Positions 2,931-4,901 of a stretch of 39,901 bases of DNA are shown here, piece by piece. Both the position numbers and the translations under genes were made by a program. The stretch's first letter is position 1; each line of letters opens with the position of its first letter. Location: contig BJGN01000013.1 of NCBI GenBank assembly GCA_014190515.1, positions 1 to 39,901 of the forward strand. Direction: 5' to 3'. The DNA comes from Bacteroidota bacterium (GTDB lineage Bacteria; Bacteroidota; Bacteroidia; Chitinophagales; Saprospiraceae). A model generated the notes under the pieces. The model ran no database searches, had not been told where the DNA came from, and worked only from the letters and a program-made list of their open reading frames with translations.

Positions 2931-3815
2931 ATGGTTGAATTACCCATTGCAGGTTCTAAAGAAAGACCTACAAAAAAACCCGATTGGCTTCGAGTTAAGC
3001 TTCCTATTGGACCCGAGTTCAAGAAGGTTCGGGAATTAGTTGACACTTATAAATTACACACTATATGCCAGTCAGGAAGTTGCCCCAATATGGGTGAATG
3101 TTGGGGAGCTGGTACTGCCACTTTTATGATTTTAGGTAATATATGCACTAGATCTTGCTCTTTTTGTGCCGTAAAAACCGGAAAACCAACAGAATATGAT
3201 ATAGAAGAGCCTGGAAGAGTTGCTGAAGCTGTTATGTTAATGCAAGTAAAACATGCTGTGATAACCTCTGTTAACAGAGACGAATTAGCAGACAGAGGGG
3301 CAGAAGTTTGGTACCAAACTATTCACCAGATTAAATTATTGAGCCCCAATACTACCATTGAAAGCCTCATTCCTGATGTAAAAGGAAATTGGGATGCCTT
3401 AGAAAGAATGATTAGTGCCGGTCAGGAAATAGTTTCTCATAATATGGAAACGGTACAAAGACTCTACCGGTTAGTGAGACCGCAGGCTAAGTATGACCGG
3501 AGTTTAGAACAGATTAAACGAACTAAAGTTTTTGGAAAAAGAACCAAATCTGGTATAATGGTCGGTCTGGGCGAAACAAAAGAAGAAGTTTTAAAATCTA
3601 TGGATGACCTGGTAGCTCATGGTTGTGATGTGCTTACTATTGGACAGTATTTACAACCCACTAAAATGCACCTTGATGTTGCCGAATTTATTCATCCCGA
3701 TACCTTTGCTTTTTATAAAGAGGAGGGTTTACGCCGTGGATTTGATTATGTGGAAAGTGGCCCGTTGGTTCGTTCTTCCTATCATGCGGAAAGACATTTA
3801 ATTCCAGCCAAATAA
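2931..3815 (+). CDS. lipA: Lipoyl synthase
   Basis: Radical-SAM enzyme that inserts two sulfurs into the octanoyl chain on lipoyl-domain proteins such as the E2 subunits of 2-oxoacid dehydrogenases. Both iron-sulfur cluster motifs are intact: the auxiliary cluster CX4CX5C (Cys46, 51, 57) and the radical-SAM CX3CX2C (Cys72, 76, 79, in CTRSCSFC). The C-terminal RSSY motif, whose serine ligates the auxiliary cluster, is present. Length (294 aa) is normal. The 3' end overlaps the convergent phosphatase-like gene by 18 bases. No lipB is seen in the window. Confidence 0.97.
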
Positions 3816-4901
3816 TACTTTTAATCTCGGTAAAAAATCAACATTCTCAAAGAATCCGGTAAATTTAATGGCACCTGGACCTTGAGAAAATACAGGGACC
3901 AAAGTTCCTGTGGTTGCTTTTCCTGTAAATTCATGTTGTAATTTCTCTCGCTTTGAGCCTGGATTTACCGAGTATCCTCCTGTTTCATACGCCGACGTAA
4001 CGATAACCAGTGTTTCCTTATCCCTTTCAGCAAAATCCAGGACTTTCGCCAGGGCTTCATCGAAATCATTATATTCAGAAAGCATATACTCTGGGTTATT
4101 GAGTTTTGCACCCAGAGCAATTTGCGCACTATTCACTAATAAAAAGAACCCATCCTTTTTTTTATCTTTTTTACTAAGAAAATCAATAGCAAAAGAAACT
4201 GCGGACGACAAATATTTTCTACCCTCCGTAACGGAGAGAGGCCAATCAAGCGCCGTAAAGGCAGCATATTTTTTTGAAAAATCGGCTGTGGGAAAGGATT
4301 TTGCCTCTGGAAGAACGGACAAAGTCTGATAACCCTGACGCTGAAGGTCTTCCATTAGATTTTTTTTATCCTGCCTGTCTGTAAAAAATTTCTCCCCACC
4401 ACCAATAATAAGATCTAAAGGTGAGCCGGGTAATTGGGAAGCAATGTATTCCTCATTCTTATAACCAGAAGAATGCGCCCAAAATGCAGCAGAGGACACG
4501 TGGGTCATGCTTGCCGTGGTAACCACCCCCGTTTTCATATTATTATCAGCCCCTATTTTCAGCATCGATGGAATGGATATTGAATCCATATTAACTCCTA
4601 ATGCGCCGTCAAAAGATTTCACACCGCAGGCAATGGCCGTAGCGGCGGCAGCGGGATCGGAATTCAAGCTATTAAAAGAGTTGGTTTTCTGTAGCCCTAT
4701 AAACGGCATTTTTTCAACTAACAGTGCATGGTTATATTGGTACAAACTACCAGAAATTTGATTTATCCCAACGCCGTCAGCAATCATTAAAATGATATTT
4801 ACAGGTTTTGACTGTTTCATCAAATCTTGCGTTGACCCAATAAAAGGCGTTAGCAATAATCCCGAACAAATAAACCCGATATTTAAATACTTCACCATCA
4901 T
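3798..4901 (-). CDS. Alkaline phosphatase family protein, probable pseudoenzyme
   Basis: 367 aa with an N-terminal signal-like segment, then the alkaline-phosphatase fold: [11 protein letters not shown] (Asp42 kept), [49 protein letters not shown] and FENVDF. The framework is well kept but the catalytic centre is not. The nucleophile Ser is Pro83, and the positions equivalent to E. coli PhoA Glu322, Asp327, His331, Asp369, His370 and His412 read Asn257, Ala262, Lys266, Ala304, Tyr305 and Thr330. Only the Asp51 equivalent and the His134/Ser136 region remain. The frame is intact over its full length, so this looks like a maintained non-catalytic homologue rather than a decayed gene. Its start overlaps the dprA stop (TAATG), implying coupled translation. 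A binding or regulatory role is inference. Confidence 0.85.

Follow-up and report, generated by a model that had tools for sequence, protein, structure and literature searches.

Alkaline phosphatase (AP) is a textbook enzyme, and the gene that follows dprA in the window, the whole stretch of 39,901 nucleotides analysed here, encodes a homologue in which catalytic residues have been exchanged, which raises the question of why such a gene should be kept. A first-pass annotation of the window had described it as an intact AP homologue with its whole active site replaced and had proposed a conserved pseudo-phosphatase coupled to dprA, perhaps a periplasmic binder or scaffold. We favour, with moderate confidence, a pseudoenzyme that is retained for a non-catalytic task, with catalysis left to a paralogue.

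Active site, selection and predicted fold

The open reading frame runs over 367 codons without an internal stop (Table 1), as had been claimed, and the fusion of its start to the preceding gene is equally real, with the start at 4901 sharing bases with the dprA stop at 4903-4901 (TAATG). We presume the preceding gene to be dprA, as it was labelled in the first-pass annotation, and we likewise take the convergent gene on the other side to be lipA-like. The 3' ends of the lipA-like and pseudo-AP genes overlap by 18 bases (3798-3815), and the lipA-like gene adjoins the AP gene in all seven genomes of the genus and also lies beside some intact linked copies in other genera. The window AP matches Pfam PF00245 (Alk_phosphatase) with 153.2 bits against a cut-off of 24.4 (E 1.4e-44), and scores 94.4 bits with the NCBIfam equivalog NF007810, below the curated cut-off of 540, a shortfall that is not diagnostic because an intact paralogue (L061) also falls under the cut-off (146.1 bits).

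Table 1. Positions in the window of the pseudo-AP gene, its altered sites and its neighbours, in PhoA numbering for the replaced residues.
Feature	Position	Strand	Basis
Pseudo alkaline phosphatase (AP), TAB5/PhoA type, PF00245, 367 aa	3798..4901	-	ORF, Pfam, fold match
Putative signal-like hydrophobic N-terminus, ~residues 1-24	4830..4901	-	Reading by eye; N-terminus of low confidence in AF2 model
Pro83 replacing nucleophilic Ser102	4653..4655	-	Alignment
Tyr147 replacing phosphate-binding Arg166	4461..4463	-	Alignment
Asn257 replacing Glu322	4131..4133	-	Alignment
Ala262 replacing Asp327	4116..4118	-	Alignment
Lys266 replacing His331	4104..4106	-	Alignment
Ala304-Tyr305 replacing Asp369-His370	3987..3992	-	Alignment; Phe305 in 1/7 genus genomes
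Thr330 replacing His412	3912..3914	-	Alignment
dprA, 362 aa	4901..5989	-	Stop overlaps AP start (TAATG)
lipA-like gene	2931..3815	+	Convergent with AP

Catalytic sites were read by alignment to the AP of the Antarctic bacterium TAB5 (PDB 2iuc) and to homologues from the family, and are given in what we take to be E. coli PhoA numbering, PhoA itself being absent from the alignments. TAB5 AP has Ser and Arg together with Glu, Asp, His, Asp, His and His, where the window protein has Pro and Tyr together with Asn, Ala, Lys, Ala, Tyr and Thr. This confirms all seven replacements that had been listed, namely the nucleophilic serine and six metal ligands, and adds two further changes, at the Arg166 equivalent (Tyr147) and at the K328/Trp position (Leu263). 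The phrase 'whole active site' is nevertheless too strong, because the equivalents of Asp51 (Asp42), Asp101 (Asp82), TAB5 His135 (His134; D153 in PhoA) and Thr155 (as Ser136) remain. Site by site, the Zn1 ligands D327, H331 and H412 are all gone; the Zn2 ligands are incomplete, with the Asp of D51 kept and D369 and H370 replaced by Ala and Tyr/Phe; and the third metal site (D51, T155, E322, D153/His) is incomplete too, with Asp42 and His134 kept, Ser136 for Thr and Asn for Glu. Overall, the window AP retains three of 12 catalytic positions vs 58 of 70 other conserved positions (Fisher p 1.4e-4), where a position counts as conserved if it reaches at least 95% conservation across 106 intact copies linked to dprA, and Ser136 is scored as changed. 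AP chemistry should not run on the residues that are left: with Pro83 at the nucleophile in all seven genus genomes and Tyr147 in place of the phosphate-binding arginine, the protein, read as an enzyme from its sequence, appears to fail each testable defining feature of catalysis, while its homology places it in the AP family.

The gene is present with the same substitutions in all seven genomes of the genus, the six others being 89-96% identical with open frames, and variation at the 13 sites that we read is limited to Tyr305Phe and Leu263Met (both in L014) and Ser136Thr (L013). The maximum likelihood (ML) omega over the seven genomes is 0.098, with lnL -3215.3 when omega was free and -3429.2 when it was fixed at 1 with kappa fixed at 2.5, kappa being free in the first model, so that the two are not strictly nested. 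Controls from the same genus gave ML omegas of 0.075 for dprA (6 genomes), 0.051 for the intact TAB5-type paralogue (5), 0.029 for the lipA-like gene (7) and 0.074 for another AP type (6), and pairwise NG86 medians were 0.094, 0.075 and 0.062 for the window AP, dprA and the intact paralogue, respectively. The window gene is under purifying selection. An assembly or sequencing artefact might be suspected, given that the genus genomes are draft assemblies in many contigs and that garbled stretches in a linked AP of another genus (L115, from genome G008) resemble frame errors; however, identical substitutions in seven separately listed genomes, with intact frames and a low omega, rule this out for the window gene, and we regard its probability as negligible.

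An AF2 model of the window AP (pLDDT 90, pTM 0.89) superposes on TAB5 AP in VIA with Z 50.5-51.0 and an rmsd of 1.5 over 331-332 residues at 37-38% identity, and Foldseek likewise matches it to 2iuc/2w5v; the protein is thus predicted to adopt the TAB5 fold. TAB5 AP (PDB 2iuc, 2w5v, 2w5x) is also the best sequence match among solved structures (2iuc, E 8.7e-63) and shares the same compact length. The checks that the first-pass annotation had proposed, on recurrence among close homologues, on dN/dS along the clade and on a structural model, therefore returned shared substitutions in 7/7 genomes, an omega of about 0.1 and a predicted AP fold, which support its reading as a probable conserved pseudo-phosphatase, and what it had named as contrary evidence, changes confined to one genome with relaxed selection or sequencing errors, is not what we found.

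The dprA-AP pair and catalytic loss across the family

AP loci were taken from the best-scoring genomes among the matches listed, and dprA regions were added from 113 genomes not already covered (100 + 13). With duplicates merged, the 13 sites were read in 216 AP genes, of which 130 are dprA-linked. Four linked copies and one unlinked copy were set aside as incomplete and six genes (L002, L066-L070) as another AP type, while L003-L008 (same genomes as other loci), L009 (a distant match) and L071 (a duplicate) were dropped. The 126 complete linked copies, 66 fetched by dprA position and 60 from score-ranked lists, comprise 125 from within the family and one, L040, intact, from another family of the same order.

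Among the 113 dprA regions taken by position alone, an AP gene was found in 70, none in 37, and six were too short; the first 100 had yielded AP pieces in 66, including a fragment (L179) that was later dropped. The AP gene lies on the dprA strand in 128/130 linked copies, the other two having no dprA piece in the locus, and ligand-complete orthologues across the family are dprA-linked as well. Intact linked APs such as L015, L035 and L072 occupy the same place after dprA, on the same strand, as the window AP, to which they are up to 45% identical (L015); they carry DDSHTREDWHDHH, whereas the window AP does not. Thus the arrangement of dprA followed by a same-strand AP is of long standing in the family, the coupling predates the dead copy, and it is both older and wider than the single instance first noticed. 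In 28 class-level APs of the matches listed (loci L295-L322), no dprA was found nearby and none had lost the Ser or a zinc ligand; one is without the D51 position and one (L320, G523) has Lys at the D101 position, beside the nucleophile, with its other ligands intact.

The full signature DDSHTREDWHDHH is kept in 106/126 complete linked copies, and we assume from their residues that intact copies are active. Mild changes occur in four more: one has D327E, and the other three (L148, L172 and L145), all from genus g36, combine Asn at D153 with Leu at K328/Trp and probably remain active, with an altered third metal site. The linked AP L019 (G196), its signature otherwise intact, contains a single in-frame TAG within the match, perhaps a copy starting to decay or an assembly error.

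Catalytic residues have been lost in the remaining 16 complete linked copies, from eight genera: seven in the window genus, and L052, L119, L146, L104, L115, L178, L141, L168 and L165 in seven further genera. One of these, L115, is doubtfully dead, as it is locally garbled around the D369-H370 and H412 motifs in a manner that resembles a frame or sequence error. By contrast, not one of 79 complete copies of the TAB5 type that we classed as unlinked has lost the nucleophile or a zinc ligand; three of them carry Asn where PhoA has D153 and one carries Leu where it has K328. The difference from the linked copies gives a Fisher p of 3.2e-4 when sequences are counted and of 0.023 when the dead copies are taken as eight lineages (the Fisher tests on sequences and genomes here ignore relatedness). 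Because the unlinked copies, like 60 of the linked ones, were picked by score among the matches listed, a ranking that disfavours very divergent copies, dead unlinked copies of that kind could be missed. Moreover, 45 of the 79 were taken with less than 500 bases upstream; 40 were classed by a dprA or linked AP elsewhere in the genome, and five (L093, L240, L255, L266 and L287) are not certainly unlinked because they have little upstream DNA and no known dprA place in the genome. Among the linked copies fetched purely by dprA position, 8/66 are dead, L115 included.

The losses differ in extent and in kind. As in the window AP, catalytic positions are depleted relative to the framework in L052 (3/12 catalytic and 58/70 framework positions kept), L104 (4/12 and 66/70), L168 (4/12 and 59/70) and L119 (8/12 and 70/70); the excess of catalytic loss is weak in L146 (9/12 and 67/70, p 0.038), and none was detected in L178 and L141 (8/12 each vs 58 and 57/70; p 0.24 and 0.26) or in L115 (p 1). 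L119, L104, L146, L178 and L141 keep the Ser with zinc ligands or the Arg gone, and metal sites may therefore go first. At the H331 position, Lys is found in the window genus and in L168 and L141, and Leu in L178, which is of the same genus as L141. The most degraded linked copy, L165/L286 in G104, keeps 2/12 catalytic and 39/70 framework positions on a branch of 4.56, with an open frame of 366 codons, and L165 also models as an AP (pLDDT 85; TM to 2iuc 0.80/0.85).

A dying relic, made useless by redundancy and now drifting, would agree with the extra AP copies in these genomes, with the unbiased losses in L178 and L141, with the long AP stem branch of the window genus (2.01 vs a median end branch of 0.34) and with the 37/113 dprA-downstream regions that are long enough to tell and have no AP, which imply a gene that is dispensable or absent in many lineages. 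However, the dprA stem of the genus is likewise long (1.14), so that the acceleration of AP is partly genome-wide, and an omega of 0.098 over seven species, a frame open in 7/7 and 58/70 framework positions kept are not what drift would leave. We rejected drift for the window genus on the omega and the open frames and consider it very unlikely overall, although it could hold for single-genome cases such as L165.

How often catalysis was lost was assessed on two quick trees, each with many weak forks. The AP tree (89 rows, including three of the seven genus rows, with the 13 sites left out) requires a minimum of six state changes, with several long dead branches grouping together, and several origins are not proven on this tree alone because the AU test that placed all 11 dead rows in one clade (without L115, and with three of the seven genus rows) gave p 0.051. 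In the same tree, 22/34 unlinked TAB5-type rows and a single linked row together make up a supported clade of 23 (97). The dprA tree, which covers 70 genomes and leaves out the AP sequence, requires a minimum of seven changes, or six without G008, and groups G018 with the intact G247/G125 (99) and G200/G126 with the intact G020 (99). A single origin of all dead copies is thus not firmly rejected, the AU test falling short of this, yet it is hard to square with the dprA tree; several independent origins are likely, though not proven.

Pseudoenzyme precedents and a possible non-catalytic role

Pseudoenzymes have been defined, and their evolution by duplication described, in reviews (PMC10211241 and PMC5106787, respectively). 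As in pseudokinases, pseudophosphatases such as STYX and prozymes, the fold of the window AP is kept, the conserved catalytic motif lost and the gene retained, intact and under selection (omega 0.098, 7 genomes); unlike pseudoenzymes in general, the loss here seems to recur at one gene position. To our knowledge, no pseudoenzyme of the PhoA/TAB5 type has been described. The word 'alkaline' is absent from the main text of both reviews (PMC10211241, PMC5106787), and we found no description of a PhoA-type pseudo alkaline phosphatase in the open-access literature, subscription papers lying outside our scope. That catalysis appears to have been lost repeatedly at a single conserved gene position, with frame and framework kept, amounts to a natural experiment that separates the role of the fold from that of the active site, and it suggests that a common phosphatase has a second role that had escaped notice. 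It also means that the presence of the gene could be misread as phosphate-scavenging capacity in metagenome surveys.

YejM, also called PbgA, is a parallel case to the window AP: its domain in the periplasm is related to the AP superfamily, and whether it was catalytic was not obvious. Having earlier been without reported activity, YejM has since been described as having an intact site, unlike that of the window AP, and Mg-dependent phosphatase activity (PMC7576196). Together with known pseudoenzymes in which catalytic residues have migrated (PMC10211241) and with the remaining Asp42, Asp82, His134 and Ser136, this speaks for a window protein that is still an enzyme, using migrated residues or another metal set for a different reaction. 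However, the nucleophile, Arg166 and all Zn1 and Zn2 ligands except the Asp51 equivalent have gone together, and the other lineages have lost different subsets with different replacements, which is unlike selection for one new reaction. We consider such changed chemistry very improbable.

In the account that we favour, a secreted TAB5-type AP would have lost zinc binding and the attack on phosphate esters, with its fold preserved by selection. An unlinked paralogue, lipobox-bearing in some genomes, would have taken over catalysis, and the dprA-linked copy would therefore have been free to lose it. The linked copy would be kept for a non-catalytic job, probably one that intact orthologues perform too, and this division of labour, catalysis by the paralogue and another function by the linked copy, would be the simplest account; loss under selection, and its recurrence at one place, suggest such a second, non-enzymatic job. 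The least certain step is the nature of that job, for which we infer a protein that is soluble in the periplasm, carries no metal, is probably a dimer and may bind a partner, protein or polymer, via its surface, with Lys266 filling the place of Zn1, where it may replace the charge of the metal and hold the emptied pocket together. The 'periplasmic binder or scaffold' of the first-pass annotation is an inference of the same kind. Binding of a phosphate ester in the pocket is unlikely because the Arg166 equivalent and both zinc sites are gone, and a simple phosphate-ester binder is disfavoured on these grounds.

A broader variant holds that the dprA-linked AP, whether active or dead, serves a conserved non-catalytic function, which might lie in DNA uptake alongside DprA, and that the phosphatase site is an optional remnant lost independently in at least six lineages. 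We offer this tentatively and think it rather doubtful. The DNA-uptake role is only a lead: in Riemerella anatipestifer, a transposon in a gene for an 'alkaline phosphatase family protein' was reported to lower transformation, the locus tag being far from that of dprA and the likeness one of annotation (PMC8459023).

Paralogues and copy number

The intact TAB5-type paralogue of the genus is 36-37% identical to the window AP and, read by eye, has a lipobox-like N-terminus, where that of the dead copy is plain and signal-like; a lipobox also seems to be present in some of the other dead copies, L168 among them. Genomes with at least two TAB5-type copies make up 13/15 of those with a dead linked copy vs 50/103 of those with an intact one (p 0.0058, relatedness ignored), in a comparison that counted G008 as multi-copy at a looser cut-off and left out G522; the p value becomes 0.027 when G008 is counted at the cut-off used for the others, and 0.010 without it. 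This association is confounded, because several dead-copy genomes are large with 4-8% estimated contamination (G200 8%, G045 6%, G153 5%, G058 and G104 4%), which itself adds copies.

APs are dimers, and the main rival to the partner-binding model is a regulatory heterodimer, in which the active paralogue would be tuned by dimerising with the dead copy. The tendency of dead copies to accompany extra TAB5-type copies, with a p value that depends on G008, would agree with this, and there is precedent in FAM20A, which tunes FAM20C, and in the AdoMetDC prozyme, which tunes its enzyme (PMC10211241, PMC6221367). However, redundancy alone, or contamination, would produce an equal association, the genus paralogue is a distant partner with a different N-terminus, and no TAB5-type paralogue was found in the two single-copy dead cases, G000 and G290, both of the window genus. 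Overall, we judge the heterodimer unlikely and retain the model of a linked copy that binds a partner while the paralogue carries out catalysis. The upstream flank of the paralogue was found in G148 and G213 but likewise not in G000 or G290, and assembly gaps may explain why the paralogue is not seen in these two. At L063, what we take to be a glpK-like gene (525-1487) lies beside the intact AP paralogue and contains a masked or undefined stretch read as X.
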